NCBI GenBank assembly: GCA_016213725.1
Contig: JACQZS010000252.1
Coordinates: 1 to 61,049 of the forward strand
DNA length: 61,049 nucleotides
Direction of reading: 5' to 3'
DNA from: Acidobacteriota bacterium
GTDB taxonomy: Bacteria; Acidobacteriota; Terriglobia; Bryobacterales; Bryobacteraceae
The number at the start of each line of letters is the position of its first letter. Within the stretch, counting starts at the first letter, position 1. The notes under the pieces were generated by a model. The model did not search any database. It was not told where the DNA came from and saw only the letters and a list, made by a program, of their open reading frames with translations. The translations under genes were made by a program, and so were the position numbers. Shown here in pieces: positions 28,378-60,375 of the stretch.

Positions 28378-28472
28378 TGGCGGGAACCAGTCGGAGTCGA
28401 ACCGACCAACGAACCTGAGGCCCGTTCAGCGGTTTTGAAGACCGTGCCTGCCACCGGGCAAAATTGGCTCCC
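28378..28472 (-). tRNA. selC: tRNA-Sec (selenocysteine, anticodon TCA)
   Basis: A 95-nt tRNA including encoded CCA, the same length as E. coli selC. Structure read by hand on the minus strand: 8-bp acceptor stem GGGAGCCA/TGGTTCCC with one G-U pair, 6-bp D stem TTTGCC/GGCAGG closing a 4-nt loop, anticodon loop CTTCAAA with TCA, and a long variable arm (TGAAC/GTTCG). The 5-bp T arm is GTCGG TTCGACT CCGAC, with discriminator G then CCA. The 8+5 acceptor/T-arm and 6-bp D stem are diagnostic of bacterial tRNA-Sec rather than a Ser tRNA. The outermost anticodon-stem pair is an A-C mismatch. It begins 21 nt after the pckA stop on the same strand and may be processed from that transcript. It implies SelA, SelB and SelD elsewhere in the genome. 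Confidence 0.93.
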
Positions 28473-28493: not shown

Positions 28494-30098
<1,605 letters not shown>

Positions 30099-45000: not shown

Positions 45001-45263
45001 GGTGGCGGGCTCCTTTCGCACCAAGCACTTACCGGCCTTGGCGGCTCTCCAATTCGCCTGCGAGGTTAGCTGACGGGCTCGGGCTGAAAAGTACCCTACG
45101 GCGGTACGCCGCCGATGCGCCCCATGGGGTGGGTCCCCCGCCCTTCCGGACCTCCGGAAGGTTAGGCAATTCCAGATTAGCGCAAAAAGAGGCCGTTTTC
45201 ATGCACGAAAGTGGCAGTTTGAGGCATCTTTCGGTGCGTTTTCGAGCGCCTGGCGCGCGGATT

Positions 45264-47086: not shown

Positions 47087-49132
47087 ATGTGCCCTCGTCT
47101 GTTTGCGGCCCTGATTTTGCTGGTTCCAATGTCGGTTCCGGCGCAGAAGATCCCGTTCACGGCGGTGGAGATGATGAAGCTGAAGCGCATCTCCGAACCG
47201 TCGCTGGCGCCGGACGGGTCGGCCGTCGTTTATACGGTGGGCGAAGTGGATGTGGAGAAGAACGCGCAGGCGCGGCAGTTGTGGATGAGCCCGGTGAGCG
47301 GCGGCGCGCCGCGGCAGGTGACGACGGAGGGGCGGAACACGAGCGCACGGTTCTCGCCGGATGCGAAGAAGATCGCGTGGATTTCAACGAAGGGCGGGTC
47401 GGCGCAGGTGTGGGTGATGGATGCGCTGGGGACGAACCCGAAGCAGATCACGAAGCTCTCGACGGAGGCCGATGGGGTGATCTGGTCAGGCGACGGGGCG
47501 AAGCTGGTGTTTACTTCGGAAGTCTATCCGGAGTGCAACGCGGACGACGCCTGCAACCAGAAGAAGCTGGACGCGGAAGCGAAGAGCAAGGTGAAGGCGC
47601 GGACCTACACGTCGCTGCTGTACCGGCACTGGACGGAGTGGAAGAGCAAGCGGGTGAAGCACCTGATGGCGGTTTCGGCCGATGGCGGAGCGGTGAAGGA
47701 TCTGACGCCGGGGTTCAAGTACGACGTGCCGCCGTTTTCGTTTGGCGGCGGGAACTATACGGTGTCGGCGGACGGGAAAGAGGTTTGCTACGCGGCCAAC
47801 CTGGAAGCGGACCAGGCGATGAGCACGAACTGGGAGCTGTACACGGTGCCGATTGACGGTCCGGCGGACGGCAAGGAGGCGGTGAAGGTTTCGAACAGCC
47901 CGGGCGCGGACGCCTCGCCGGCGTATTCGCCGGACGGCAAGTGGCTGGCGTGGAGGATGCAGGTGCGGGCCGGGTATGAGAGCGACCGCTGGCGGCTGGT
48001 GGTGCTGGAGCGGGAGACGGGCAAGCTGAACGTGTTGACGGAGAACCTGGACCGGCACGTGACGGGATTTGCGTGGCATCCGGATTCAAAGCGGCTGGCG
48101 TTCACGGTGGAAGACCGGGGGCGGCAGCAGGCGCAGATGATCGCGGTGACGGGCGGCGGGACGCGGGCGTTGACGCAGGGTTCGACGCACGTGGACGACC
48201 TGCAGTTTGCCAACGACGGCAAGACGCTGCTGTACACGGAAGTGACTGGGGCGAGCCCGACGGAGATTTACAAGGCATCGAGCGGCGGCGGCGCGCCGGT
48301 GGCGCTGACGAAGCTGAACGAGAAGTTCCTGGCCGAGCACGATGTGAGGCGGCTGGAGGAGTTCACGGTGACGGGCGCGGAGGGCGCGCAGGTGCACAGC
48401 TTCCTGCTGAAGCCGCCGGCGTTCGACGCGAAGAAGAAGTACCCGGTGCTGTTCTTGATCCACGGCGGCCCGCAGGGCGCGTGGGGCGAATCGTTCAGCT
48501 ACCGCTGGAACCAGCAGGTATTCGCGACGGCGGGGTTTGTGGTGGTGATGCCGAATCCGCGCGGGTCGACGGGATATGGCTCGAAGTTCACGGACGAGAT
48601 CAACGGCGACTGGGGCGGGAAGGCGTACGACGACATCATGGCGGTGGCCGATCATGTGGAGAAGCTGCCGTATGTGGACGGAGAGCGGATGGCGGCGGCG
48701 GGCGGGAGCTACGGCGGGTACATGGTGAATTGGATCATGGGCCACACGCAGCGGTTCAAGGCGCTGGTGTCGCATGCGGGGGTCTACGACCTGCCGAGCA
48801 TGGGGGGCGAGACGGAAGAGCTGTGGTTTTCGACGTGGGAGTTCAAGGGTTTCCCGTGGCAGAACCCGGAGATGTACGAGAAGTGGTCGCCGTCGAAGCA
48901 TGTGGCGAACTTCAAGACGCCGACGCTGGTGATTCACGGCGAGCTGGATTTCCGGGTGCCGTACGGCCAGGGTTTGCAGTTATTCACGGGCTTGCAGGCG
49001 CAAAAGGTGCCTTCGAAGCTGCTGGTGTATCCGGATGAAGGGCACTGGGTGCTGAAGCCGCAGAATTCATTGTTGTGGTACGACACATTCCTGGAATGGG
49101 TGGGCGAATGGACCAAGAAAAAATCAGAGTAG
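47087..49132 (+). CDS. Secreted S9 prolyl-oligopeptidase-family peptidase
   Basis: A 681-residue exported serine peptidase. Signal peptide MCPRLFAALILLVPMSVPAQ, then a WD/TolB-like beta-propeller (repeats such as APDGSAVVYTVGEVD, SPDAKKIAWISTKGG and SPDGKWLAWRMQ) to about residue 420. The alpha/beta-hydrolase catalytic domain has VLFLIHGGPQGAWGE, the nucleophile in GGSYGGYMVNW (near residue 540), Asp in HGELDFRVPYGQG and His in PDEGHWV. This is the acylaminoacyl-peptidase/dipeptidyl-peptidase IV branch. Its role is peptide utilisation in the periplasm or outside the cell. Its 3' end overlaps the next gene by 25 bp. Confidence 0.95.
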   Translation: MCPRLFAALILLVPMSVPAQKIPFTAVEMMKLKRISEPSLAPDGSAVVYTVGEVDVEKNAQARQLWMSPVSGGAPRQVTTEGRNTSARFSPDAKKIAWISTKGGSAQVWVMDALGTNPKQITKLSTEADGVIWSGDGAKLVFTSEVYPECNADDACNQKKLDAEAKSKVKARTYTSLLYRHWTEWKSKRVKHLMAVSADGGAVKDLTPGFKYDVPPFSFGGGNYTVSADGKEVCYAANLEADQAMSTNWELYTVPIDGPADGKEAVKVSNSPGADASPAYSPDGKWLAWRMQVRAGYESDRWRLVVLERETGKLNVLTENLDRHVTGFAWHPDSKRLAFTVEDRGRQQAQMIAVTGGGTRALTQGSTHVDDLQFANDGKTLLYTEVTGASPTEIYKASSGGGAPVALTKLNEKFLAEHDVRRLEEFTVTGAEGAQVHSFLLKPPAFDAKKKYPVLFLIHGGPQGAWGESFSYRWNQQVFATAGFVVVMPNPRGSTGYGSKFTDEINGDWGGKAYDDIMAVADHVEKLPYVDGERMAAAGGSYGGYMVNWIMGHTQRFKALVSHAGVYDLPSMGGETEELWFSTWEFKGFPWQNPEMYEKWSPSKHVANFKTPTLVIHGELDFRVPYGQGLQLFTGLQAQKVPSKLLVYPDEGHWVLKPQNSLLWYDTFLEWVGEWTKKKSE

Positions 49133-50886
49133 CGGCGCTGGCGCTGCTGGCGGCGGCCTGCATGAGCGGGCAGACGCTGGAGAAAGTGGCGGGGCTGGAG
49201 CTGACGGGCGCGTCCGCGCTGTCGGTGGGATTGACGCTGCCTCAGGGCGTGGCCCGGGACGCGGCGGGAAACGTGTATTTCAGCCAGCCGTTGATGGGGA
49301 GCGTGTGGAAGGTGACGCCGGATGGCGTGGTGCAGGTGGCGGCCCGCGGGCTGTCGAATCCGGCGGCTGTGGCCGTGGACGAAGCCGGCAACCTGTTTGT
49401 GGCGACCGTGGTGGGCGTGGAGACCGTGGCGGCCGGCAGCGGAGAGGTGCGGACGCTGGCGAAGGTGGAGCCGAAGGGGGAGTTGCGGTCCGCGGCGTGG
49501 CTGGCGCGGATGCCGGACGGGCGGCTGGTGGTGGCGGACAATGAAGCGCGGATGCTGAAGCTGGTGGATGCGGTGAGCGGGGCGGTATCGCACCTGGCCG
49601 GATCGGGCAAGAGTTACATTGCGGGCGACAACGGGCCGGCTTCGCAGGCGTCGCTGCAGTCGCCGGCGATGGTGGCGGTGGACGGAGATGGGAACGTCTA
49701 CTACGCGGAGCAGTTCGAGCCGACGGTGCGGCAGATCGACGCGTTGACGAAGACGATCACGAACGTGAAGTTCGGGCTGCCCGACGAGGATATTCCGGGC
49801 GAAGCGGAGATGGTGAGCGGGCTGGCGGCGGACGCTGTGGGGAATCTGTATATCGCGCAGATCGCGAGAGGGCGCGTGCTGAGGGTGAACTGGAAGGGGC
49901 AGGTGGAGGTGTTTGGGAAGGCGGGCGTGCCGACGGCGCTGGCGGCTGGCGCCGCCGGTGAAGTGCTGGTGGCCGAGCCGCTGCCTCCGAGGATCTGGAA
50001 GATGCGGATGGAGGCGGAGCTGGAAGCAGTGGTGGGGAATGGACTGAGGGCTTACAACGGAGATGGCCTGGAGGCGGGGCAAACGCAACTGGCCGAGCCG
50101 GCGCAGGTGGCTGTGGCTGCGAATGGCGATGCGTTTGTGAGCAGTATGCTGGCGGACCGGGTTTTGAAGATCGGCCCGGATGGGCTGGTTTCGACGGCCG
50201 GGAAGTTCGCGTGGACGCGGCCGCAGGCTCTGCTGGTGGATGTGAACGGGGACCTGGTGGTATCGGACTACGACAACCAGATGCTGTACCGGGTGCTGGG
50301 CGATGGGACGGTGGCGCCGGAGCGTGAGATTCCGGTGAGAACGGCGCAGATCGGCGCGCGGCTGGAACAGCCGGGGACGCTGGTGAGCGACGGGACGCGG
50401 ATGTTCCTGTCGTCGCCGAACGATCATCACGTGTGGGTGATCACGGCGGACAAGGTGAAAGTGTATGCGGGGACGGGAGAGGCTGGATTTGCCGGTGACG
50501 GCGAGGCGTCGGCGGCGGCGAAACTGCGGAACCCCTCGGGGCTGGCGTTGGATTCGACGGGTAACCTGTATGTGGCGGATACGAAGAACCACCGGGTGCG
50601 GAAGGTGGAGATGGCGACTGGTTTGATTACGACGGTGTGGCCGGTAGGGGAAGTGGATGAAGCGAGCCTGCCGACGGGGCTGGCGATGGGGCCGGACGGG
50701 CGGCTGTATGCGGCGGATGCGGGGTTGAACAGAGTTTGGCGGATCGACGTGGGGACGGGCGCGGCGGAGGTGGTGGTGAGCGAGGGGCTGAGCCGGCCGT
50801 GCGGTGTGGCGTTCGACCGCAATGGCAAGCTGCTGGTGGTGGATACGGGGAATGCGAGGGTGGTGCGGGTGGTGACGGGGGAGTAG
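49108..50886 (+). CDS. Secreted NHL-repeat beta-propeller protein
   Basis: A 592-residue protein with signal-like MDQEKIRVAALALLAAACMSGQ, possibly a lipoprotein-like cysteine (AAC). The body is a run of NHL repeats: LPQGVARDAAGNVYFSQP, NPAAVAVDEAGNLFVATV, QSPAMVAVDGDGNVYYAEQ and, near the end, NPSGLALDSTGNLYVADTKNHRVRKV. At least nine such units can be counted, enough for one or two propellers. Similar proteins are abundant in Acidobacteriota and are presumed to bind ligands or other proteins outside the cell. Its start lies inside the end of the S9 gene in another frame, so it depends on that operon. Confidence 0.85.
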   Translation: MDQEKIRVAALALLAAACMSGQTLEKVAGLELTGASALSVGLTLPQGVARDAAGNVYFSQPLMGSVWKVTPDGVVQVAARGLSNPAAVAVDEAGNLFVATVVGVETVAAGSGEVRTLAKVEPKGELRSAAWLARMPDGRLVVADNEARMLKLVDAVSGAVSHLAGSGKSYIAGDNGPASQASLQSPAMVAVDGDGNVYYAEQFEPTVRQIDALTKTITNVKFGLPDEDIPGEAEMVSGLAADAVGNLYIAQIARGRVLRVNWKGQVEVFGKAGVPTALAAGAAGEVLVAEPLPPRIWKMRMEAELEAVVGNGLRAYNGDGLEAGQTQLAEPAQVAVAANGDAFVSSMLADRVLKIGPDGLVSTAGKFAWTRPQALLVDVNGDLVVSDYDNQMLYRVLGDGTVAPEREIPVRTAQIGARLEQPGTLVSDGTRMFLSSPNDHHVWVITADKVKVYAGTGEAGFAGDGEASAAAKLRNPSGLALDSTGNLYVADTKNHRVRKVEMATGLITTVWPVGEVDEASLPTGLAMGPDGRLYAADAGLNRVWRIDVGTGAAEVVVSEGLSRPCGVAFDRNGKLLVVDTGNARVVRVVTGE

Positions 50887-51033
50887 GGCGGAGGGTGAAA
50901 GTACACTGACTTTCGAGGCGGCGCCGGGACTTTGGAGTTTCAGAGCCGGCGGACGCCGCGCCGCGCGGCAAGACTACCAGGATTCGATGCCGTTTCGCGT
51001 CACCGATCAGGCGGTTTCTGCATCGCCGTCGGT

Positions 51034-52299
51034 ATGTCAATCATATTAAGACCGAAAACTCTTATTTTTCTGCTTGCCGCCAGCGCCGGAACCACTGCAT
51101 TGGCCACGGACGGGTATTTCTCGAACGGGTACGGTACACAGTGCAAAGCGATGGCTGGCGCCTGTGCCGCGGTATCGAATGATTCCATGGCATCGGCTTC
51201 GAACCCGGCAGCGATGTTCTGGGCAGGCAAGCGGTTTGACTTGGGATTGAATTTTTTCAATCCAAATCGTGATTTTACGGTGACGGGGAACCCATCGGGT
51301 TATCCGGGGACGTTCGGGCTGGCGCCCGGAAAGGTGGAGAGCGATTCGAAGCTGTTCCTGATCCCCAGTTTCGGTGCGAACTGGCGAGTCAGGGAGAACA
51401 CGACGTTTGGGGTCTCGATGTACGGCAATGGGGGCATGAACACCAACTATCCGGCGCCGGTGTTCGGGCAGAAGCCGACGGGAGTGAACCTGTCGCAGAT
51501 GTTTGTCACGCCCACGGTAGCCCAGCGGTTCGGAGGCCGTCACTCGGTGGGATTGACCGCGATCATGGCGTATCAGCGGTTCAAGGCGGAAGGACTAGGC
51601 GCATTTGGGATGTTCTCCAGCGATCCCGCGAAGTTGAGCAACGTAGGGACGGCGAGTTCGATGGGGGTTGGCGGGAAGTTCGGCTACCTGGGGAATCTGA
51701 GCCAGTACATTTCAGTGGGCGGCTACTACCAGACGAAAGTGCTGATGAGCAAGTTCGACAAGTATGCGGGACTGTTCGCGCAGCAGGGCGATTTTGACAT
51801 TCCGGCGGCGTTTTCAGGAGGAGTGAACCTGAAGCTGCTGAAGAACATGTCGGTATCGGCGGACGTGGAGCGGATCCAGTATTCGGGCGTGAAGTCGATC
51901 AGCAACCCCATGCTGCCGAATCTGATGATGGCGAAGTTGGGCATGGACAACGGCGCCGGATTTGGGTGGAAGGACATCACAGTAGGTCGCTTTGGGGTGC
52001 AATTCACCCCGGCGAGGACTTGGACGATCCGCGGGGGGTTCTCGACCGGCGGGCAGCCGATTCCGAATACTGAAGTCATGTTCAACATCCTTGCTCCGGG
52101 CGTTGTGACGAAGCACGCGACGTTTGGCGTGACGCACGGGCTGGGGGGGGGGAAGTTGCTGCATGTGGCAGTGGTGAGGGCATTTTCGGAGTCTGTGACC
52201 GGGCTCAATCCGTTGGATCCCCCGGCTGGCCAGTATGTCAAACTGCACATGAACCAATGGGAATTCGAAGTTGGGTTTTCCTTTGGCGTGAAGAGGTAG
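51034..52299 (+). CDS. OmpP1/FadL/TodX-family outer-membrane transporter
   Basis: A 421-residue protein with signal peptide MSIILRPKTLIFLLAASAGTTALA. It starts DGYFSNGYGTQCKAMAGACAAVSNDSMASASNPAAMFW, the hallmark N-terminal hatch of FadL-type hydrophobic-compound transporters. A beta-barrel with aromatic strands follows. The closing segment QYVKLHMNQWEFEVGFSFGVKR ends in the terminal aromatic-rich strand required for outer-membrane insertion. Likely substrates are long-chain fatty acids or aromatic hydrocarbons. A TACACT hexamer lies at 50902-50907, giving a ~120-nt leader. A 12-bp hairpin (52373-52401) follows the gene. Confidence 0.9.
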   Translation: MSIILRPKTLIFLLAASAGTTALATDGYFSNGYGTQCKAMAGACAAVSNDSMASASNPAAMFWAGKRFDLGLNFFNPNRDFTVTGNPSGYPGTFGLAPGKVESDSKLFLIPSFGANWRVRENTTFGVSMYGNGGMNTNYPAPVFGQKPTGVNLSQMFVTPTVAQRFGGRHSVGLTAIMAYQRFKAEGLGAFGMFSSDPAKLSNVGTASSMGVGGKFGYLGNLSQYISVGGYYQTKVLMSKFDKYAGLFAQQGDFDIPAAFSGGVNLKLLKNMSVSADVERIQYSGVKSISNPMLPNLMMAKLGMDNGAGFGWKDITVGRFGVQFTPARTWTIRGGFSTGGQPIPNTEVMFNILAPGVVTKHATFGVTHGLGGGKLLHVAVVRAFSESVTGLNPLDPPAGQYVKLHMNQWEFEVGFSFGVKR

Positions 52300-52372
52300 C
52301 GGCTGATGGATGAGCCGGATGCAAGGGCGAAGAATGGGAAGAGTATCCGGCTGGAAGGGGAGGAAGACGGGG

Positions 52373-52401
52373 GCAGGAGTGGCGAATTCCGCCACTCCTG
52401 C
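52373..52401. terminator. Hairpin between convergent genes, likely bidirectional terminator
   Basis: GCAGGAGTGGCG (52373-52384) pairs perfectly with CGCCACTCCTGC (52390-52401) around a 5-nt loop. It sits between the FadL-like gene and the leftward sulfur operon, where both need to stop. There is no T run on either side, so efficiency is uncertain. Confidence 0.6.
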
Positions 52402-52444
52402 TCACTGTCTAACTCCCGCCGGGCGGGGCCGGCCGCTCCTTAGA

Positions 52445-53095
52445 TTAGGAGCAGCCGCGGCCTAGTTTGAGTTTCTTGGGGGCAGCGCCTCCGGGGGCTG
52501 GGGCGGAGGGTGCGGGCATGGCCGGGGCGGCGGCGCCGGATTTGCGGGGCGAGGAGCCTCCCATGAATTGGTCGCGGAGGGCTCGGGACTGCTGGTAGCC
52601 GGCGGATTGGGGCTCCTCGCCGCGGAGGCTTTGAGGGGTCATGACCTGGTCCCACCAGGCGGTGATGCCTTCTTTGAGCGAGAGGGCCTGGTAGCCCTTC
52701 ATCGAGAGCAGCAACTGGGTTTGGGCGGGGTGGCCGGCGCCGAGGCCGTAGACGACGATTTTCTTGGAACGCTCGAGGCGGTTGAGGCCTTCGGCGGTGA
52801 AGAGCTGCGAGAGCGGGATGTTGATGGCGGTGGGGATGTGATAGTCGTCGAACTCCCAGGGGTCGCGGAGGTCGATGAGCTGGTAGTCGGCGCGCTTGTC
52901 GAGGATCCAGCGGGCGAGTTCGACGGGCTGGACATGATCGGTCTGGGCGAGCATGGCGTCGACGGTGGCCTGGGGGTTGGCCGAGCTGATGCCGGCGCCG
53001 CCCTGCATGGCGGCGGAGGCGAGGGCGAGGATGCCTCCGGTGAGGAGGACGGCGGCGGCGGCGAGTTTCTTGCCGGCGAGATGGATTTCGAACAT
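52445..53095 (-). CDS. Membrane-anchored rhodanese-fold protein without active-site Cys, with terminal Cys tail
   Basis: A 216-residue protein. An N-terminal signal anchor (KKLAAAAVLLTGGILALASAA) places the rest in the periplasm. The rhodanese fold is clear: VELARWILDKRADYQLIDLRDPWEFDDYHIPTAINIPLSQL, then KKIVVYGLGAGHPAQTQLLLSMKG and ALSLKEGITAWWDQV. In active rhodaneses the loop after VVY holds the catalytic Cys (Y-C-xx-G-x-R); here it reads YGLGAG. The only Cys in the whole protein is residue 215, the penultimate one, at the end of a ~45-residue Ala/Pro/Gly/Lys linker ending KKLKLGRGCS. I infer a mobile sulfur-carrying arm. It is the last gene of the five-gene operon, 5 nt after the YeeE gene. 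Confidence 0.88.
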   Translation of the reverse strand: MFEIHLAGKKLAAAAVLLTGGILALASAAMQGGAGISSANPQATVDAMLAQTDHVQPVELARWILDKRADYQLIDLRDPWEFDDYHIPTAINIPLSQLFTAEGLNRLERSKKIVVYGLGAGHPAQTQLLLSMKGYQALSLKEGITAWWDQVMTPQSLRGEEPQSAGYQQSRALRDQFMGGSSPRKSGAAAPAMPAPSAPAPGGAAPKKLKLGRGCS

Positions 53096-53100
53096 GGGGT

Positions 53101-53706
53101 TTACTGCTCCTTACCGTATGTCTTTTTGAAGAGCTGCCATTTGCCTTCGCTCATTTCGGCGGCCCAGAAGGCTCCGAGTGCGATGACGGCGAGGGCGAAA
53201 GCGCCGGCGCCGTGGCTAATGTTGAGCCATTGGGGGAGGGTGAGCGGGCCGAGGGCGCCGGAGACGTTGAAGTTGTGGATGGAGGGCTCGATGATGGCGA
53301 AGCCGAAGATGCCGGCGAAGATGCCGCCGAGGAAGAAGAGGGCGTCGAGCTTGCCGATGGCGCCGGCGACGACGGCGGTGCCGGGGCAGTAGCCGCCGAG
53401 GATGAAGCCGGTGCCGAGGAGGAGTCCGCCGAGGAGTTGGGGCCAGATGTAGGCGTCGGGGACGTAGATCTGGCTCATGTCAACGATGCCGAGCAGAGAG
53501 AGCCAGGCGAGGCCGAGGCAGGCGACGACGATGGCGGAGAACATGACCTTGAGGACGCCCCAATCCTTGAAAAAGAACTGGGCGGTGAGCTTGAGGGAAG
53601 AGCTGAAGCCGGCGCGTTCGAGCCAGAAGCCGAAGAAGAAGCCGAGAGTGAGGGCGGCGACGATGAAGGCGCCGGTGGAGAGAGTGAGGGGGAAGAGGGA
53701 GTTCAC
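53101..53706 (-). CDS. YeeE/YedE-family sulfur-transport membrane protein (half-size)
   Basis: A 201-residue membrane protein with about five helices of the DUF395/Sulf_transp type. Family marks are GFFFGFWLERAGFSSSLKL at the start and GFILGGYCPGTAVVAGAIGKLD, where Cys107 corresponds to a conserved transport Cys. YeeE/YedE proteins such as bacterial TsuA take up thiosulfate, passing it along conserved Cys residues. Here the protein is half the normal length; the other half is fused to the cytochrome b gene upstream. The start is GTG 53706, overlapping the stop of that gene (GTGA). Frame continues upstream to 53928, but that sequence encodes the other protein. Confidence 0.9.
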   Translation of the reverse strand: MNSLFPLTLSTGAFIVAALTLGFFFGFWLERAGFSSSLKLTAQFFFKDWGVLKVMFSAIVVACLGLAWLSLLGIVDMSQIYVPDAYIWPQLLGGLLLGTGFILGGYCPGTAVVAGAIGKLDALFFLGGIFAGIFGFAIIEPSIHNFNVSGALGPLTLPQWLNISHGAGAFALAVIALGAFWAAEMSEGKWQLFKKTYGKEQ

Positions 53707-54986
53707 AGCCAGATTCTCCTGAGGAAGAAGGCGCCGACGAAGCCGGCGGCGAAGACGGCGAGCATGAAGACGAAGGCTCCGGCAGAGAGGACGCTGCCGC
53801 CGGAGAGGGCGAGTCCGGAGGTGCAGCCGCGGGCCATGCGGGCGCCGACGCCGGAGATGGCGCCGCCGAGGAAGGCGAGCATCCAGCGGGTTTTGGGCGA
53901 GATGCGGGGGCCTTTGTCGGTGGTCCACTTGAGGCGGCCGGCGAGCCAGCCGGAGAGGAGGCCGCCGAGGGCGACGCCGATCAGCTCAAAGACGAGGAAG
54001 TCCATGAGGACGGGTTGGCCGGGCTGGACGTAGTTGCTCCAGTAGGGGTGGGCCGACGCGTAGCCGGGGGCGACGAGGGAGAGGATGAAGGCGAGGTAGC
54101 GGGTGAAACCGCCGGAGGCGCCGAGACCCTGGCCGACGATGAGGAAGGTGGCGAGGAGGGTGAGTCCGAGGCCTAAGCCGGCCCAGTAGCCGGGCCAGTA
54201 TTCCTTCATGCGGAGGGCGGTGAGGAGACGGGAGGGAGCAGGGGCGGGCCGGGGTTCGGGTTGTCCGGCGGCGTGCAGCTCTTCGAGCATTTTTACCTCT
54301 TTCCACCACTTGTGGTGGTGCTTGTAGGCGAACTCTTCGGGGACCATGCCGGTGATCATGGAGAAGAAGGCGGGCTTCTCTTCCGGGAAGACGGCGCCCA
54401 TGTAGACATGGACCATGAGGCCGCTGACGACGACGGCGACGGTAGCGAAGTGGATGACGACGGCCCAGCCGACTACGGTCATAGAGCCCCAGTGGAAGGC
54501 CATGATGAGGCCGGTGACCATGATGATGGGGAACATGATGTAGACCATGACGGCGAACATCTTCTGGCCGGCGTTGTAGATGCCCTGCGGGGGGAGGGGT
54601 TCGTTGGAGCGGCCGAGGATGCGGAGGAGGCGGATGCGGAGCCAGTTGAAGTCGTCGCGGTCGAGGGCGACCTCGCGTTCGAGGACTTCCTGGTGGAAGT
54701 AGGTCTGCCAGCCGAAGATGCCGTAGACGGCAAAGACGGTGATCCAGGTGAGTCCGGCGGCGATGTGGAAGCGGAGGAGATTGGCGCGGGAGCCGAAGAC
54801 CTCCGTGATCATGGTGACGAACCACAGGGGGGCGAAGCGGAAGTGCTCGCTCTGGATGAGGGCGGCGCCGGTGGTGAGTTCGAGGAGCCAGGTGATGGCG
54901 TTGAACCAGTGGAGGAGGATGATGGCGACGTGGTGCTTTTTGATCATCCCCGTAGGAGTGCTGTGCATTTGGACGGCGCTACTCAT
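53703..54986 (-). CDS. Cytochrome b (FdhG/PhsC-like) fused to YeeE/YedE half-transporter
   Basis: A 427-residue membrane protein with two parts. Residues ~15-235 are a formate-dehydrogenase-gamma/PhsC-like cytochrome b with four helices and candidate heme ligands His26 (LLHWFN), His74 (LRFHIAAG), His179 (VIHFATV) and His193 (MVHVYMG). After a Pro-rich linker (QPEPRPAPAP), residues ~260-427 are a YeeE/YedE-type transporter half, with GVGARMARGCTSGLALSGGS (Cys388) as the sulfur-binding Cys motif. I know of no characterised enzyme with this fusion; it would tie quinol-linked electron transfer to sulfur-species transport. It overlaps the ferredoxin gene by 8 nt and the second YeeE gene by 4 nt. 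Confidence 0.88.
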   Translation of the reverse strand: MSSAVQMHSTPTGMIKKHHVAIILLHWFNAITWLLELTTGAALIQSEHFRFAPLWFVTMITEVFGSRANLLRFHIAAGLTWITVFAVYGIFGWQTYFHQEVLEREVALDRDDFNWLRIRLLRILGRSNEPLPPQGIYNAGQKMFAVMVYIMFPIIMVTGLIMAFHWGSMTVVGWAVVIHFATVAVVVSGLMVHVYMGAVFPEEKPAFFSMITGMVPEEFAYKHHHKWWKEVKMLEELHAAGQPEPRPAPAPSRLLTALRMKEYWPGYWAGLGLGLTLLATFLIVGQGLGASGGFTRYLAFILSLVAPGYASAHPYWSNYVQPGQPVLMDFLVFELIGVALGGLLSGWLAGRLKWTTDKGPRISPKTRWMLAFLGGAISGVGARMARGCTSGLALSGGSVLSAGAFVFMLAVFAAGFVGAFFLRRIWL

Positions 54987-55710
54987 CGAACTGGCCCTCC
55001 CCTTTCCGAAGTTGAGTGAAGAAGGCGATGGCCTGGCCGGCGAAAGTGGCGCCGACCATGGCGAGGGCGAGCGGTTTGACTACCTTGCTCCACCACTGGC
55101 CCGAGGAGGGGAGCTGGGGTTGGCGGGGCGGGAACATCTGGGCGACGAGTTCGGGCTCGCCGCGGCGGCCGGCGTAGTAGACGTTGGGGCCGACTTTGAC
55201 GTCGTCGCTTTCGATGCGCTGGGCGCCGCCGGAGTAGACGAGGCGGTAGACGTCGCTACCCGGGTCTTCGAGGTCTCCGAAGTACTTGGCGTGGCCGGTG
55301 CAGGTGGTGACGCAGGCGGGCTGGCGGCCGCGTTCGAGGCGGGCGGAGCAGAAGTCGCACTTGTCGACCTTTTTCGTCGCGGGGTTCAGGTAGCGGGCTT
55401 CGTAGGGGCAGGCCTGGACGCAGAAGCCGCAGCCGATGCAGAGGTTGCGATCGATTTTGACGATGCCGTTCTCGGCGCGGAAGGTGGCGCCGGAAGGGCA
55501 GGGCGAGAGGCAGGGGGCGTCGTCGCAGTGGTTGCACTGGGCGACATAGAAAGCCGAGCGGAGATGGGGGAACTTGCCGACCGCGCCGGTGGGGAGGACG
55601 CGGGTGCGGGCTTGGCCGGGCGGGACGTCCCATTCGGCGTTGCAGGCTGCGGTGCAGGCCTGGCAGCCGACGCAGCGGGTGAGGTCCGTGACCATTGCGT
55701 AGCGTGCCAT
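54979..55710 (-). CDS. Four-cluster 4Fe-4S ferredoxin subunit (PhsB/DmsB-like), membrane-tethered
   Basis: A 243-residue electron-transfer subunit. Sixteen Cys in four groups are visible: 13/16/19/23, 59/62/67/71, 91/94/97/101 and 118/121/133/137, enough for four [4Fe-4S] clusters in the order of PhsB/PsrB/HybA-type proteins. A C-terminal hydrophobic helix (KPLALAMVGATFAGQAIAF, about 209-228) probably anchors it in the membrane. It has no signal peptide, so it likely crosses with the Tat-exported catalytic subunit. It would carry electrons between the Mo active site and cytochrome b. The gene begins 2 nt after the catalytic-subunit stop. Confidence 0.95.
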   Translation of the reverse strand: MARYAMVTDLTRCVGCQACTAACNAEWDVPPGQARTRVLPTGAVGKFPHLRSAFYVAQCNHCDDAPCLSPCPSGATFRAENGIVKIDRNLCIGCGFCVQACPYEARYLNPATKKVDKCDFCSARLERGRQPACVTTCTGHAKYFGDLEDPGSDVYRLVYSGGAQRIESDDVKVGPNVYYAGRRGEPELVAQMFPPRQPQLPSSGQWWSKVVKPLALAMVGATFAGQAIAFFTQLRKGEGQFDE

Positions 55711-55712
55711 GG

Positions 55713-57914
55713 CTAGGTGTGGACCTCCGGTTTGACGCGGACGAAGTTGACGCGCATGCCGGTGCCGCCCATGAGGGGGTCGATCTTGACGCGAGAGATG
55801 AGGGGGGTGTCGGAGGCGCCGCGGGCGTTGGCTTTGTGGAGGCCGGGGGCCTGCTGGCCGAAGCCGTGGGCCATATAGACGCAGTCCTTACGGATGGCGG
55901 CGGTGGGCTGGACGGCGACGGGGAGGGATTCGCTGCCGTCGGAGTTTTGAAGGACGATGCGAGCGCCGGGGGCGAGGCCGAGATCGCGGGCGGCGTGGTC
56001 GTTCATCCAGACGGTGTTTTCACTCATGAGGCCGTTGAGCAGCGCGTTGTTTTCGGTGCGCGCGAAGCTGTGGACGGGGGCGCGGCCGTAGAGGAGGCGG
56101 AACCAGCCGGGGGGCGGATCGGCGGGCGGATGGTAGATGGGGATGGGGTCGTGGCCGAGTTCCTTGAGGGTTTTGGAGGAGAGTTCGATTTTGCCGGACT
56201 CGGTGGGGAAGAGCGGGCCGTCGGCTTCGGTGCGTTGTTCGATGGTGGGGCGGCCTTCGAAGGCCATGGCGCCGCGGGCTTTGAGCTCGGAGAGGGAGAT
56301 GCCCATGGGCTCGATCAATTTGGAGAGATGTTCGTCGGGGTTCTTCCAGGGGAACCAGGCATCGAGGCCGAGACGGGCGGCCATCTGCTTGGCGATCCAC
56401 CAGCCGGGGCGGGAGTCGTGGAGGGGGGCGACAGCGGGTTGGCGGAGGCTGATGAAGGGCCGGGCGGCGGACTCGACGATGTGGGGCGCGTCGTAGCGTT
56501 CGAGGTAGGTGGCTTCGGGGAGGATGAGGTCGGCGTAGAGGGTTTGTTCGACGGGGAGGATGTCGACGACGACGAAGAGGTCGAGGAGTTTGATGGCGGC
56601 GAGGGTGCGCTCGCGCTGGGGGATGGATTCGAGGACGTTCTGGCCGTAGACGATCCAGCTCTTGATGGGGTAAGGCTGGGCGGTGAGGGTGGCTTCGACG
56701 ATGCCGTTGGTGACGCCCTGCTCTTCGGAGGCGAGGGGATAAGTGGTGCCGGCGCCGTCGGCGCGGCCGCGCTTGGATTCGGGGAAGGGGGGGAGCTTGA
56801 AGCTGCCGCGTTTGAGGGCAGTGGGGAGGAGCACGCCGCCGGAGCGGCCCCAGGCGCCGAGGAGGGCGGTGAGGATGGCCATGGCGCGGGCGCGCTGGGT
56901 GTCGTCGCCGTACCACGTGACGTGGCGGCCGGGGTGGAGGACGACGGCGGGCTTGGCGGCGGCCATCATGCGGGCGGTGTCGCGGATTTGGGCGGCGGGG
57001 AGTTCAGTTTCGGCGGAGGCCCATTCGGGGGTGAAGGGCTTCACATGGGCGCGGAGTTCGTCGAGGCCGTGGGCGTGTTTGGCGAGGTAATCCTTATCCT
57101 CGAGGCCTTCGGCAAGGATGACGTTCATCCAGGCGAGGAGGAGGGCGATGTCGGTGCCGGGGCGGATGGGGAGCCATTGGGTGGCTTTGGAGGCGGCGGT
57201 GGAGAAGCGTGGATCGACGACGATGAGCTGGGCACCTTTGGAGAGGCCGTCGGCGAACTGGGTGATCTGGGAGGTGAAGACGTTTTCGCCGAGGTGGGAG
57301 CCGATGAGGACGACGGCTTTGGCGTTGGCGAGGTCGAGGGGCTCGGGGGAGCCGACGCCGCGGCCGAAGGTGAGGGCGTAGCCGACTTCGCGGGGTCCGC
57401 GGCACTGGGCGAAGGCGGGTTCGGCGGAGTTGGGGGTGCCGTAGGCCTTCATGAGGGTGGAGAAGAAGCCGGAGGAGACGCCATGGGGGAGGATGGCGAC
57501 GGACTCGGGGCCGTACTTGGATTTGAGATCGGAGAGGCGGGCGGCGAACCAGTCGAGGGCCTGTTCCCAGGAGATCTCCTGGAAGCGGCCTTCGCCGCGG
57601 GCTCCGGTGCGGAGTTGGGGGCGTTTGAGGCGGTCGGGGTCGTAGAGGGTTTGATGGCCGGCGTTGCCGCGGGCGCAGAGGCGGCCCTGAGTGAGGGGGT
57701 GCTGGGGGTTGCCCTCAATGCGGGCGACGCGGCCGTTCTGGATCTGGGCGAGGGCGCCGCAGCGCCAGAAGCACATTTCGCAGTTGGTGGCGACCTGGAG
57801 GGCGGGTTGGCCGGCACGCTGGCCGGGGGTAGTAGTGGCGGTGGCGGCGGCGGTAGTGGCGGCCGCGGCCGAGGTGGCGCGGAACCAATTCCGGCGGCTG
57901 ATCCCCTGAGGCAT
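55713..57914 (-). CDS. Tat-exported molybdopterin oxidoreductase, catalytic subunit (PhsA/PsrA-like)
   Basis: A 733-residue DMSO-reductase-superfamily enzyme. Tat signal GISRRNWFRATSAAAAT, then a [4Fe-4S] site with Cys45/48/52/80 (CEMCFWRC and GRLCARG). Cys171 in SAEPAFAQCRGPREVGYAL stands where PhsA/PsrA-type enzymes have the Mo-ligating Cys. Selenocysteine is not used here, since no in-frame TGA is needed. GSHLGENVF, HPGRHVTWYGDDTQRARAMAIL and the C-terminal GGTGMRVNFVRVK fit the family. I infer thiosulfate, polysulfide or tetrathionate conversion from the partner genes; formate or other substrates remain possible. The Shine-Dalgarno lies inside a predicted hairpin. First gene of the operon. 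Confidence 0.93.
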   Translation of the reverse strand: MPQGISRRNWFRATSAAAATTAAATATTTPGQRAGQPALQVATNCEMCFWRCGALAQIQNGRVARIEGNPQHPLTQGRLCARGNAGHQTLYDPDRLKRPQLRTGARGEGRFQEISWEQALDWFAARLSDLKSKYGPESVAILPHGVSSGFFSTLMKAYGTPNSAEPAFAQCRGPREVGYALTFGRGVGSPEPLDLANAKAVVLIGSHLGENVFTSQITQFADGLSKGAQLIVVDPRFSTAASKATQWLPIRPGTDIALLLAWMNVILAEGLEDKDYLAKHAHGLDELRAHVKPFTPEWASAETELPAAQIRDTARMMAAAKPAVVLHPGRHVTWYGDDTQRARAMAILTALLGAWGRSGGVLLPTALKRGSFKLPPFPESKRGRADGAGTTYPLASEEQGVTNGIVEATLTAQPYPIKSWIVYGQNVLESIPQRERTLAAIKLLDLFVVVDILPVEQTLYADLILPEATYLERYDAPHIVESAARPFISLRQPAVAPLHDSRPGWWIAKQMAARLGLDAWFPWKNPDEHLSKLIEPMGISLSELKARGAMAFEGRPTIEQRTEADGPLFPTESGKIELSSKTLKELGHDPIPIYHPPADPPPGWFRLLYGRAPVHSFARTENNALLNGLMSENTVWMNDHAARDLGLAPGARIVLQNSDGSESLPVAVQPTAAIRKDCVYMAHGFGQQAPGLHKANARGASDTPLISRVKIDPLMGGTGMRVNFVRVKPEVHT

Positions 57915-57920
57915 GAATCG

Positions 57921-57938
57921 ATCTCCAATTTCGGAGAT
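57921..57938 (-). promoter_or_regulatory. Hairpin covering the ribosome-binding site of the molybdoenzyme gene
   Basis: On the minus strand ATCTCC, six nt (gaaatt), GGAGAT are followed by CGATTC and the ATG. GGAG, the only Shine-Dalgarno candidate (8 nt from the ATG), is the 3' arm of a 6-bp perfect stem, so its pairing would block translation of the operon's first gene. Confidence 0.6.
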
Positions 57939-57972
57939 GCAAGTCTCAAGAAGTGGTGACGGGGAATCTTCG

Positions 57973-60375
57973 TCAGGGGATTTTGAGATGGATAGGGAAT
58001 GACGTGAAGAGACCGGAGACCATGATAAAGACAGCGGCCGTGAATTGGGGAGGGCTGGAGAACGGAGGTGGGGCGTCGTAGCGGACGGTGAGTTCCATGA
58101 CCCCGGCGGGCCACTCGGGGGCCTGTTGATAGCGGAGCAATTGCAGTTTCGCGGTGGTAGAGATGAGTTCCGGTTGAGCTCTGGGGATGGGGAGGATGGG
58201 GAAGCCGATCTGGCCGTCGACGGTGGGGGGATTGGTGGGACCGGCGCCGGAGACGAGGAAGCGGACTGATGCGCCGAGAGCGGCGGGGTTTTCGGCGGAG
58301 TTGAGGGAGCCGTCTTCGTTTTCGGCGCGGAGGAGGGCTAGAGAGATGGGGTAGAGGGTGCAGGTCTGAGTGTCCGTGGGCTGGCCGTCGCGGAGGAGGA
58401 CGACGGGAATGGTCTGCCGGGCGGGAGTGGCGGCGGGGATGATGGCGTCGATGCGGTCGGGTTCGGCGCGGAGAATGGGGGCGGGGCGGCCGGCGAAGGT
58501 GACGCGGATGCCGCCGAGAGTGGTGGCGATGCGGTTGTTCTCGTCGAGCTGCCAATCCATGGGGGTGGCGGGGCCGATGCCGCGGCCGCGGAGGGTGACG
58601 AGGGTAGCGGGGGCGAGCAGGGTGCTAGCTTCACTTCCGGTTTGGGCGATGCAGGCGAGGATGGGGCGATTGGGGGCGGACGGATCGAGTGTCCACAGAT
58701 TCAAAGGCGCGGAGAATCCGATTAGCGAAGGATAGGGTGGGTCGGCGGGAGTGCCGAAGCGAGCATCCGGCGGCAGGAAGGTGGCGAAGGTGAGAGTGAA
58801 GTCCGGGGAGAAGCGGGCGTAGTAGTCTAGCGCGCCGCACGGTTCGGGAAGGATGGCGTCGGGAGTGATTGGGGGGAGTTCGGTTTGGGGCCCTGGCGAG
58901 AGGCTGAAGACGGGCGAGAAGCCGGGAGCCGGAGTGAGCAGAGTGACGTTTCCTTGCGGGTCCGCGTAGAGGGAGCCGAGGGGGAAGCCGGGGCGGATGT
59001 CGAGACGGCCGTTGGCGAGGCGGGCCAAGGCGGTGGGGCCTCCGGTTTGGGTGGCGGAGAGCCAGAGGGAGTTGTCGGGGGCGACGGCGAACGACTTAAC
59101 TGTGAGTTCGCGCGAGAGGGGTTGGGATTCGAGATATTGGCCGTCGGGGCTGTAGTGGTCCAGGAAGTTAGGGGTGCTGAGGAGCCAGATGGAGCCGCCG
59201 GGTGCGTAGCGGACGGCGGCGGCTTGCCGGAGGCGGATGAGGCGGACCTCGTAATCAGAGAACGACTCGTTGAGGCGGAGGAGGGTCTGCCGGGAGTCTG
59301 AAGAGAGAGGGGGGCTGAGAAGGAGAAGGGGGCGGCCGCCGGAATCCACGTCGAAGGAGATGAGGGTGTCTTCGGAGGTGATTCCGACGTAAGTGGAGTA
59401 GATGAGGGCGGCGTTGGGGCCGTAGAGTTTGGTGACGAAGGCGCTATGGCCGCCGGCGGGCTGGGGGAGGACGGCGTTTTCGGAGGTGGGAAAATCACTG
59501 GAGTAGGTGGCGCCGGCGAGGTAGAAGTTGCCGTCGGGGTCGGTGCGGAGCATGGAGACGGAGGATCCGCCGGGGAGGTAAGTGAGGGCGATGAGTTCAC
59601 CTGTGGGGTTGAACTTGGCGGCAGCGAAGAGGCCGGCGTCGGGAAAGGTGGTGAGCCAGTTGCCGGCGGCGTCGCGGATGGCCTGGGTGAATGGGATGGA
59701 GAGGGGTTGGATGGGGAGCTGCAGGTAGATTTGAACTTGGGTGGCGGAACTGGTGCCGGTGACTTCGAGGTAGGCCTCATTGGGATCGGCGCCGATGCGC
59801 CAGCGGGCGGGGAAGGAGCGCCTGGCCTGGAGGGCGATGGGGTGAGGGAAGACGGCGAGGTCCGTGATGAGGCTGCCGTCGCTGTCGATGCGGAGGGGGG
59901 CGGAGTTCTCGAAGCGCAGGCGGTAGGTGGAAGGCTGTGCGGCCGGGGCGAGGTCCCAGCGCCATTCGACGTAGGTGTCGCGGGTCTGGTAGTGCCAGTA
60001 GAGGCCGGGGGCGACGGATTGGTATTCGAGGATGTTGTAGCGGGGAATGGATTCGAACCACTGATCGCGGGCGGGGCCGCGGTAGTAGTGAGAGAGCCCT
60101 TCGGCGGGGAAGGCGAGAGCGGAGACGCAGGTGGGCTTGGCTGCGGAGAGGGTGAGGCGGGGCGCTGGGGCACCGGTGAGCGGATTAGGAGAGCGCGTGA
60201 TGGAGGAGCAGTCGAAGGCCCAGCCTTGGGAGGCGATGAAGTGGGTGGCGGGATAGTCAAACTGGCCTTGGTTGGATTCGAAGGCGGCAGAGATGGTGGG
60301 TTGGAAGCGCTCCAGCGCGGCGGCTGTCATGAGGGACGCCGCCAGGAGGAGGGTGGAGAGACAACCGTAGTTCAT
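57973..60375 (-). CDS. Secreted SBBP-repeat protein with Solibacter-type (TIGR03437-like) C-terminal domain
   Basis: An 800-residue exported protein (signal MNYGCLSTLLLAASLMTAAALE). Residues ~25-240 resemble the beta-rich N-terminal domain found ahead of SBBP propellers (FESNQGQFDYPATHFIASQGWAF, YPRYNILEYQSVAPG-like pattern, WRWDLAPAA). SBBP-type propeller blades follow (GNFYLAGATYSSDFPTSENAVLP, ALIYSTYVGI). The last ~215 residues begin around LVTLRGRGIGPATPMDW and include LGGIRVTFAGRPAPILRAEPDRIDAIIPA, the C-terminal domain first described in Solibacter. It sits 58 nt before the molybdoenzyme gene on the same strand, and might be co-transcribed. Function unknown. Confidence 0.85.
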   Translation of the reverse strand: MNYGCLSTLLLAASLMTAAALERFQPTISAAFESNQGQFDYPATHFIASQGWAFDCSSITRSPNPLTGAPAPRLTLSAAKPTCVSALAFPAEGLSHYYRGPARDQWFESIPRYNILEYQSVAPGLYWHYQTRDTYVEWRWDLAPAAQPSTYRLRFENSAPLRIDSDGSLITDLAVFPHPIALQARRSFPARWRIGADPNEAYLEVTGTSSATQVQIYLQLPIQPLSIPFTQAIRDAAGNWLTTFPDAGLFAAAKFNPTGELIALTYLPGGSSVSMLRTDPDGNFYLAGATYSSDFPTSENAVLPQPAGGHSAFVTKLYGPNAALIYSTYVGITSEDTLISFDVDSGGRPLLLLSPPLSSDSRQTLLRLNESFSDYEVRLIRLRQAAAVRYAPGGSIWLLSTPNFLDHYSPDGQYLESQPLSRELTVKSFAVAPDNSLWLSATQTGGPTALARLANGRLDIRPGFPLGSLYADPQGNVTLLTPAPGFSPVFSLSPGPQTELPPITPDAILPEPCGALDYYARFSPDFTLTFATFLPPDARFGTPADPPYPSLIGFSAPLNLWTLDPSAPNRPILACIAQTGSEASTLLAPATLVTLRGRGIGPATPMDWQLDENNRIATTLGGIRVTFAGRPAPILRAEPDRIDAIIPAATPARQTIPVVLLRDGQPTDTQTCTLYPISLALLRAENEDGSLNSAENPAALGASVRFLVSGAGPTNPPTVDGQIGFPILPIPRAQPELISTTAKLQLLRYQQAPEWPAGVMELTVRYDAPPPFSSPPQFTAAVFIMVSGLFTSFPIHLKIP

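Follow-up and report, generated by a model that had tools for sequence, protein, structure and literature searches.

The five-gene operon described here lies on the minus strand (57914-52445) of a stretch of 61,049 nucleotides, hereafter the window, which comprises positions 1 to 61,049 of a contig from an Acidobacteriota soil bacterium. It combines a respiratory molybdoenzyme with the two halves of a YeeE-type sulfur channel, one of them fused to the cytochrome b of the enzyme, and with a membrane-anchored protein that ends in a cysteine-tipped arm. On balance, and with confidence that only just tilts that way, we read it as a Phs/Psr-type respiratory sulfane-sulfur complex with its own sulfur relay and import channel; a sulfur role is likely, the relay is probable, and the reductive direction is only favored. 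The gene content, the fusion, the complementary transporter halves, the arm, the topology signal, and, in some relatives, an in-frame TGA can be read from the DNA itself. The features concerned, in window coordinates, are the following.

55713..57914, minus strand: catalytic molybdoenzyme subunit of the PsrA/PhsA lineage, 733 aa, with a twin-arginine translocation (Tat) signal (Pfam, NCBIfam, PDB match)
54979..55710, minus strand: ferredoxin subunit, FdnH-like, 243 aa (Pfam, NCBIfam, hydropathy)
53703..54986, minus strand: FdnI-type cytochrome b fused to a YeeE C-terminal half, 427 aa (Pfam, profile, fold)
54279..54986, minus strand: cytochrome b part of the fusion, about residues 1-236 (Pfam, profile; model confident)
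53706..54254, minus strand: YeeE1 part of the fusion, C-terminal half of PmpA type, about residues 245-427 (profiles; model weak)
53823..53825, minus strand: codon of Cys388, the only cysteine of the fusion, in the motif RGCTSG, aligned with the C-half cysteine of StYeeE (8k1r)
53101..53706, minus strand: YeeE2, N-terminal half of PmpB type, 201 aa, its GTG start overlapping the stop of the fusion (Pfam, TsuA profile, alignment)
53386..53388, minus strand: codon of Cys107, in GGYCPGT, replaced by TGA in four relatives
52445..53095, minus strand: membrane-anchored pseudo-rhodanese, 216 aa, with a Pro/Ala-rich C-terminal arm ending KLKLGRGCS (Pfam Rhodanese; transmembrane helix 11-29)
52451..52453, minus strand: codon of Cys215, the penultimate residue and only cysteine of the pseudo-rhodanese (cysteine list)
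50932..52299, plus strand: OmpP1/FadL family outer-membrane protein, a convergent neighbor and possible associate (Pfam Toluene_X)

The spacings between the five open reading frames (ORFs), +2, -8, -4, and +5 nt in order of transcription, agree with the range of -8 to +5 nt that a first-pass annotation of this DNA had given. Pfam assigns Molybdopterin, Molybdop_Fe4S4, and Molydop_binding to the first product, Fer4 to the second, Ni_hydr_CYTB and Sulf_transp to the third, Sulf_transp to the fourth, and Rhodanese to the fifth. The catalytic subunit matches Thermus thermophilus Psr (PDB 2vpw_A) at 738 bits over residues 35-728, far above the formate dehydrogenases, and reaches 492 bits against the NCBIfam PhsA equivalog, under its cut-off of 694. 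A formate enzyme was considered as an alternative, and the subunit scores below both cut-offs (Fdh-alpha, 230 versus 666 bits; Fdh-N alpha, 124 versus 814 bits). Near its start stands SRRNWFR, which corresponds to what we take to be the twin-arginine consensus, and a periplasmic location is predicted; this motif and the Psr match bear out the Tat-exported PhsA/PsrA-like subunit of the first-pass annotation. Its Fe4S4 cysteines are Cys45, Cys48, Cys52, and Cys80, and Cys171, which aligns with a Psr cysteine, is the probable molybdenum ligand. Judged by the full-length homology, the Fe4S4 domain, and the cysteine ligand together, the subunit belongs to the PsrA/PhsA/SrrA lineage, in which SrrA is placed with PsrA and PhsA (PMC7331816). 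The ferredoxin has 16 cysteines, corresponding to four [4Fe-4S] clusters, and a C-terminal transmembrane helix by hydropathy (214-232). With an FdnI-type cytochrome b, presumably also the type of PhsC, the predicted subunit make-up is that of a Phs-type complex. In a tree of 65 homologous catalytic subunits, made by a quick method with support from the Shimodaira-Hasegawa-like approximate likelihood ratio test only, a branch with a support of 99 separates the 17 clusters of NrfD type from the cytochrome b types.

The third gene holds Ni_hydr_CYTB (residues 19-213) and Sulf_transp (residues 245-416, profile positions 161-309) in one frame, so that cytochrome b and a YeeE half do share a polypeptide, as had been proposed. 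The cytochrome part is FdnI-like both by profile (1kqf_C, 2.3e-18) and by fold (Foldseek, 5.8e-7), and the YeeE1 part matches the C-terminal half of StYeeE by profile (4.4e-5). Residues 39-191 of YeeE2 cover the other portion of Sulf_transp (profile positions 9-158), and the TsuA profile is split likewise (238-314 in the fusion, 3-122 in YeeE2); one transporter is therefore divided between the two genes, its N-terminal half being YeeE2 and its C-terminal half lying in the fusion. A single-sequence PDB search with YeeE2 gave nothing credible. In published terms YeeE1 is PmpA-like and YeeE2 PmpB-like, and the PmpB and PmpA cysteines correspond to Cys91 and Cys293 of StYeeE (PMC11582611). With complementary halves and a conserved cysteine in each, the pair is, as far as profiles tell, of the PmpAB/YedE1E2 split type, and split YedE1E2 imports zero-valent sulfur, the cysteine of each half being essential (PMC10812762). 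The thiosulfate transport assumed in the first-pass annotation is established for one-chain TsuA/YeeE, whereas split halves have been measured with zero-valent sulfur (PMC10812762), and the present halves score 22.7 and 21.2 bits against the TsuA/YeeE thiosulfate transporter model, whose cut-off is 400. A thiosulfate route is thus possible, not specially supported; the broader idea that transport and redox of a sulfur species are coupled is plausible, as the five genes travel together. As the catalytic subunit is predicted to be periplasmic, import would not be needed to feed it.

The fusion recurs in other genomes. It is found as one ORF in 4 of 101 genomes, namely that of the window and 3 of 100 relatives (65-90% identity). 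A phylum sample of 396 genomes (matches at E <= 1e-30) has 3 with a one-frame fusion, counting the window genome, and 7 in which the match, at 62-65%, is to a cytochrome b that does not extend into YeeE1. When GTDB genomes were scanned with an alignment of the fusion, 121 related stretches emerged; 80 were kept, and 51 of these were annotated (L097-L147). Cytochrome b and YeeE1 share one ORF in 18 of these 51 loci: L097-L110, from Acidobacteriota and one Ignavibacteriales metagenome-assembled genome, and four from Aminicenantes (L117, L118, L120, and L121). Its presence in 18 other genomes rejects a sequencing artefact as the source of the fusion. All 18 have the ferredoxin directly upstream and YeeE2 directly downstream; the molybdoenzyme precedes the ferredoxin, cut by the contig start in L104 and broken in L108 by an in-frame stop and an internal gap. 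In each of the 17 loci whose contig continues, a fifth gene carries a candidate carrier thiol (13 arm-bearing pseudo-rhodaneses, 1 arm-only ORF, and 3 catalytic rhodaneses), and the co-occurrence that the first-pass annotation had suggested checking is thus confirmed. Cytochrome b and YeeE1 are adjacent and unfused in four Myxococcota loci (L129, L134, L136, and L138, the last two from Anaeromyxobacter), three of which, L129 being the other, have the ferredoxin and the cytochrome b in one ORF. This second kind of subunit fusion within the same enzyme group occurs in 10 of the 65 clusters (L127, L130-L134, L136, L138, L142, and L143). In Anaeromyxobacter, homologous clusters occur in the soil strains A. 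oryzae Red232 and PSR-1. Several low-GC loci were read as stop-to-stop frames. One such frame in L091, of 479 residues, had appeared to join NrfD to YeeE1 and was rejected, its upstream half being a spurious frame; an apparent molybdoenzyme-YeeE2 join in L066 was likewise rejected, because the shared frame contains a fragment of each, and YeeE1 intervenes in a different frame. At that place (L066, 6437-8215) a truncated molybdoenzyme N-terminus runs into YeeE1-YeeE2, followed by an arm ending GGCGG, and the join is taken as a deletion relic or an assembly fault. There was no match in viral contigs and one weak cytochrome match in plasmids. Among the literature matches listed (titles and abstract openings), none describes a cytochrome b-YeeE fusion or such an operon.

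The association with respiratory subunits extends beyond the fusion. When one TGA-bearing YeeE2, read with cysteine at that codon, was used as a query across the order (E <= 1e-25), the subfamily was found in 22 of 257 genomes, in every case beside a quinone-reactive membrane subunit: 9 cytochrome b fusions, 11 NrfD proteins, and 2 octahaem-type cytochromes b. Eight ordinary YeeE loci from this family, matched at 28-39% identity and including one from the window genome, were checked over about 1.5 kb to either side, and neither a cytochrome b nor an NrfD was matched. NCBIfam TIGR04315 places the octahaem partner in L093 within the tetrathionate reductase family, at 573.6 bits against a cut-off of 375; homologues adjoin the module in L058, L069, L070, L092, L093, L095 (second locus), and L123, and partial ones in L205 and L206. 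These sister operons also hold a cytochrome b, and their arms end GGC, GGCGG, or GGCGS where the contig continues. The clusters of L058, L069, L070, L092, and L093 have YeeE and the arm and no molybdoenzyme match in the 10-15 kb fetched, and L068, whose contig begins at the cytochrome b, has none either. The window genome also has a second, ordinary split YeeE pair (L076; contig 3, 6359-7224), with no cysteine arm and no redox neighbor.

The fifth protein matches Pfam Rhodanese only (67-149), with no SoxY domain match, and reads YGLGAGH where the active-site cysteine of a rhodanese would stand. The rhodanese fold proposed for it in the first-pass annotation is hence retained, but its catalytic cysteine is absent and a cysteine-tipped arm is found instead. 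Among 31 homologous rows, which include the window protein and duplicates of three genomes, the active-site cysteine is kept in one (L128) and displaced by one place in another (L089, one place earlier), and all 31 end within five residues of a cysteine, against a background of 9 of 209 other genes called in these loci. The tip is present in all 22 order-wide loci (KLKLGxGCS in 9, KKKEGC in 3, SSCS or KSCS in 8, GGCGG or GGCGS in 2). In seven of these (L197-L202 and L204), which show no rhodanese match, it is part of YeeE2, whose chain continues for 86-114 residues past the YeeE2 match, with a helix and a Pro/Ala-rich linker leading to the tip; in L109, a 92-residue ORF (8420-8698) consists of anchor and arm only and ends DEGC. 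In the seven ordinary YeeE loci with a visible YeeE2, neither this protein nor any ORF that starts at most 60 nt away bears a tip; L027 does have, at a distance of 642 nt, a short overlapping ORF with the ending PRCAA, which was left uncounted. In a tally of 58 YeeE2 places, from genomes partly the same as in the order-wide set, the tip is found in 47: fused in 18, on the next gene in 28, and in L103 beyond an inserted FadL gene that separates YeeE2 from the arm gene. Of the others, L124 and L126 are followed by an ORF ending GSGC, L072, L118, and L123 are cut by contig ends, and six lack a tip, one of them the ordinary paralogue L076. The pattern suggests a carrier thiol that is retained while its scaffold varies. 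The arm appears linked to both partners, because it stands beside a cytochrome b enzyme in L087, whose fetched 16 kb show no match to YeeE, and beside YeeE in the octahaem clusters that lack a molybdoenzyme match.

Topology was predicted from hydropathy and positive charges, and rests on simple rules. YeeE2 is predicted to have its N-terminus outside, five helices, and its C-terminus inside. All 15 YeeE2-arm proteins inspected have an extra helix separating YeeE2 from the arm (in that of L198 one earlier helix is under the threshold), and two unfused YeeE2 proteins have five helices. Because this further transmembrane helix precedes the arm, and the separate pseudo-rhodanese has its own N-terminal helix, the arm is predicted to lie on the periplasmic side, with the Tat-exported enzyme.

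In four relatives (L101, L102, L103, and L105) the codon of the YeeE2 cysteine is TGA, giving GGYUPGT. Among 53 distinct places this residue is cysteine in 49, TGA in 4, and nothing else (53 and 4 of 57 with duplicates), and, since none of the 22 order-wide matches has an internal stop, TGA at this codon is restricted to a small number of relatives. The identical codon and site in four genomes reject a sequencing error, and the TGA probably encodes selenocysteine (Sec). In all four, the UGA is followed at 13 nt by the start of a 7-bp hairpin whose loop is GGUC; 4 of 49 cysteine genes also have a stem of at least 6 bp and GGU close to the loop, and only that of L100, the nearest cysteine-bearing relative, is identical. 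The hairpin presumably resembles the E. coli fdhF element. When synonymous codons were resampled, however, 96 to 137 of 2000 draws per sequence (about 5-7%) gave as long a stem, and this hairpin, similar to a selenocysteine insertion sequence, is weak evidence when taken alone. Both tRNA-Sec and selB exceed their cut-offs in three of the four TGA-bearing genomes, and neither does in the fourth (G497, a 2.0-Mb assembly). Many of the loci L147-L176, which the cytochrome b pattern brought up, contain Sec in clusters similar to formate dehydrogenase, with an in-frame TGA (ARIUHSPTVA or similar); they serve well as a positive control for the interpretation of TGA as Sec. A published Sec-containing YeeE/YedE (WP_012471001.1, motif GUxSG; PMC13188914) likewise has Sec in place of a conserved YeeE cysteine; by its motif, that Sec is at the cysteine of the YeeE1 half (GCTSG), whereas in the present relatives the probable Sec is in YeeE2. 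No report of Sec at GGYUPG was found among the matches listed from the open-licence literature, nor in the accessible parts of PMC13188914 and PMC9312934.

We infer from these features that the proteins form a complex, and the following route is proposed for its substrate, its direction, the persulfide on the arm, and the division of sulfur between reduction and import. Periplasmic sulfane sulfur (polysulfide, thiosulfate-derived, or elemental), possibly admitted by the FadL protein, would be loaded onto the terminal cysteine of the tethered arm. The periplasmic molybdoenzyme would reduce part of it to sulfide, with electrons from menaquinol that reach it via the FdnI-type cytochrome b and the four [4Fe-4S] clusters. 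What remains would pass from the arm to a channel composed of YeeE2, with Cys107 (probably Sec in some relatives), and YeeE1, with Cys388; this channel would be held against the cytochrome, with which it shares a polypeptide. The imported sulfur might then serve cytoplasmic metabolism, by the Dsr route in the relatives that have it. The fixed cysteine of the arm, the channel cysteine or Sec, and the fusion would fit such a tethered relay between enzyme and channel. We advance only tentatively, and with some doubt, the stronger version of a redox-coupled translocase, in which shared polypeptides would couple the two activities, the arm would link the enzyme to a (seleno)cysteine channel by shuttling persulfide, and sulfane sulfur would be split between reduction outside and import inside; its channel-plus-arm module would be portable across at least three types of respiratory complex, those of cytochrome b molybdoenzymes, NrfD molybdoenzymes, and octahaem cytochromes.

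Several observations weigh against this account. The YeeE fold of the fusion is not confirmed structurally: its model (mean predicted local distance difference test score, pLDDT, 69.6) is confident in the cytochrome b part and weak in the YeeE part, the one Foldseek match at E <= 0.001 is FdnI, and the YeeE2 model is weak as well (mean pLDDT 56.7). Sulfur transfer from SoxY along YeeE-type cysteines has been called conceivable, but a spacing of 7 Å makes direct transfer from cysteine to cysteine questionable (PMC11582611), a doubt that holds for the present channel as well. Three tipless Aminicenantes carry an intact catalytic rhodanese (CKSGGRG or CYKGGRG) and no arm, and neither arm nor rhodanese adjoins YeeE2 in L075 and L129, where the contigs end 1.1 and 0.6 kb on. 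The sulfur does not have the same cytoplasmic fate in all carriers: dsrA exceeds its cut-off in 8 of 23 genomes (the 18 with the fusion, the four Myxococcota, and that of the window), including three TGA-bearing ones, and it was not matched in the window genome, which is 88.8% complete. The main evidence against obligate coupling is that in 27 of the 65 molybdoenzyme clusters the cytochrome b is present but the 4.5 kb downstream lack YeeE1, so that the enzyme can work without YeeE1. Four of these 27 have YeeE2 within 9 kb, several have multihaem cytochromes or porins instead, and some of the contigs end early. Ten cytochrome b molybdoenzyme clusters with no YeeE1 directly downstream (L082, L088, L113-L115, L119, L122-L124, and L126), hold multihaem cytochromes, Rieske-like genes, or porin O/P nearby, and perhaps use a different electron partner.

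As to the direction, formate dehydrogenase N feeds the quinone pool and PhsC draws from it, so that FdnI-type cytochromes work both ways. The complex might thus oxidize periplasmic sulfide or polysulfide, giving sulfur to the arm cysteine and electrons to menaquinone, with zero-valent sulfur imported for further oxidation. DsrA in 8 of the 23 genomes might suit such a process, as would the inward-only transport reported for split YedE1E2 (PMC10812762); as both the closest solved relative and the lineage are reductases, we consider it unlikely. It is improbable, too, that the enzyme is an ordinary polysulfide or thiosulfate reductase with which YeeE and the rhodanese are only co-regulated, the fusion being a by-product of tight gene order without functional coupling. 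The 27 clusters lacking a nearby YeeE1 speak for this explanation, but it is at odds with a fusion kept in 18 genomes of several groups and with a YeeE2 subfamily that stands beside a redox subunit in 22 of 22 genomes, compared with none of the eight ordinary loci.

That the operon encodes a respiratory reductase of selenite, or of another form of selenium, with a selenium-handling YedE is very unlikely. SrrA belongs to the same lineage and rhodanese-like neighbors have been proposed as an SrrA marker (PMC8528874), YedE proteins have been tied to selenium metabolism (PMC9312934), Sec probably occurs in the YeeE2 of relatives, the window contains a tRNA-Sec, and both halves give weak matches to selenium-YedE models. 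These matches, however, amount to about 22-32 bits against cut-offs of 200 and 350, and the same module stands beside octahaem cytochromes of the tetrathionate reductase family, while DsrC-like genes adjoin 2 of the 17 NrfD clusters, both of which point to sulfur. Decoding of Sec is moreover general in the order, as selB exceeds its cut-off in 204 of 257 genomes and in 19 of the 22 carriers, and the window genome, with cysteine at the YeeE2 site, has tRNA-Sec and selB all the same; the tRNA-Sec was therefore rejected as a sign of a selenium role. It lies at 28378-28472 on the minus strand, adjoining an ATP-type phosphoenolpyruvate carboxykinase gene (28494-30098). Finally, the supply of sulfur for molybdenum cofactor maturation by the YeeE halves and the rhodanese, as cytoplasmic sulfurtransferases do for formate dehydrogenases, is highly implausible and was rejected, given the predicted periplasmic arm and the octahaem loci L058, L069, L070, L092, and L093, together with L068, which have the module and the arm and no molybdoenzyme match.

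Regarding the surroundings of the operon, FadL/OmpP1 homologues lie within 9 kb in 9 of 38 YeeE-bearing clusters and in none of the 27 without a nearby YeeE1, several contigs ending sooner. Directly upstream of the operon is a gene for a protein with DUF7948 and the Solibacter C-terminal domain TIGR03437 (57973-60375, minus strand). Farther away, a cyclic di-AMP riboswitch of the ydaO/yuaA type (88.8 bits; 45040-45178, minus strand) stands just upstream of an amino-acid-permease-family gene (42811-45000).

The passage of sulfane sulfur from periplasmic carriers through YeeE-family channels, and the way in which sulfur respirers and disproportionators split sulfane sulfur across the membrane, are treated as unresolved (PMC11582611, PMC12998232). 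In this regard, the fusions of a channel to a respiratory chain, the conserved cysteine of the arm, and the probable Sec of the channel offer concrete residues that can be mutated to probe a covalent sulfur relay. Our reading suggests that sulfur respiration and the movement of sulfur across the membrane may take place in one machine and, if true, would account for some of the sulfur physiology of the carriers among the Acidobacteriota, Aminicenantes, and Anaeromyxobacter.

In comparison with known systems, the operon has the three kinds of subunit of PhsABC and PsrABC, namely a catalytic one (matching T. thermophilus Psr at 738 bits), a ferredoxin, and a membrane subunit that reacts with quinone. 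The last is of FdnI type here, presumably as in PhsC, and of NrfD type in sister clusters (Pfam), as in PsrC. Unlike in those complexes, the membrane subunit is fused to half a transporter, and the operon holds the second half and a cysteine-arm protein. The YTD cluster, linked to sulfur disproportionation, likewise has a YedE-type permease, the Psr operon of Desulfurivibrio dismutans holds a three-domain rhodanese, and elsewhere a porin gene occurs with periplasmic sulfurtransferases and a YeeE/YedE (PMC12142623); in YTD, however, yedE accompanies tusA and dsrE, whereas the present operon has split halves and the fusion, with no TusA or DsrE among the 8 neighboring proteins scanned with Pfam (49075-60375). 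With PmpAB/YedE1E2 it has in common two half-length YeeE proteins with one conserved cysteine each (here Cys388 and Cys107), a comparison made by profiles and alignments. At about 180 and 201 aa the present halves exceed the published length of about 130 aa (PMC11582611), and they differ in the cytochrome b fusion, the redox subunit adjacent in 22 of 22 genomes, the Sec variant, and the cysteine arm. The GGCGG at some arm ends is, we assume, the SoxY motif, and the resemblance of the C-terminal cysteine of the arm to SoxY is a lead only. A parallel for the proposed relay is SoxT fed by SoxYZ in Hyphomicrobium denitrificans, in which a channel of the YeeE family is thought to take sulfane sulfur from a periplasmic carrier thiol (PMC11582611); here, the arm shows no SoxY domain match, has a membrane anchor next to the channel or forms part of the channel protein, and has a respiratory molybdoenzyme as its partner.

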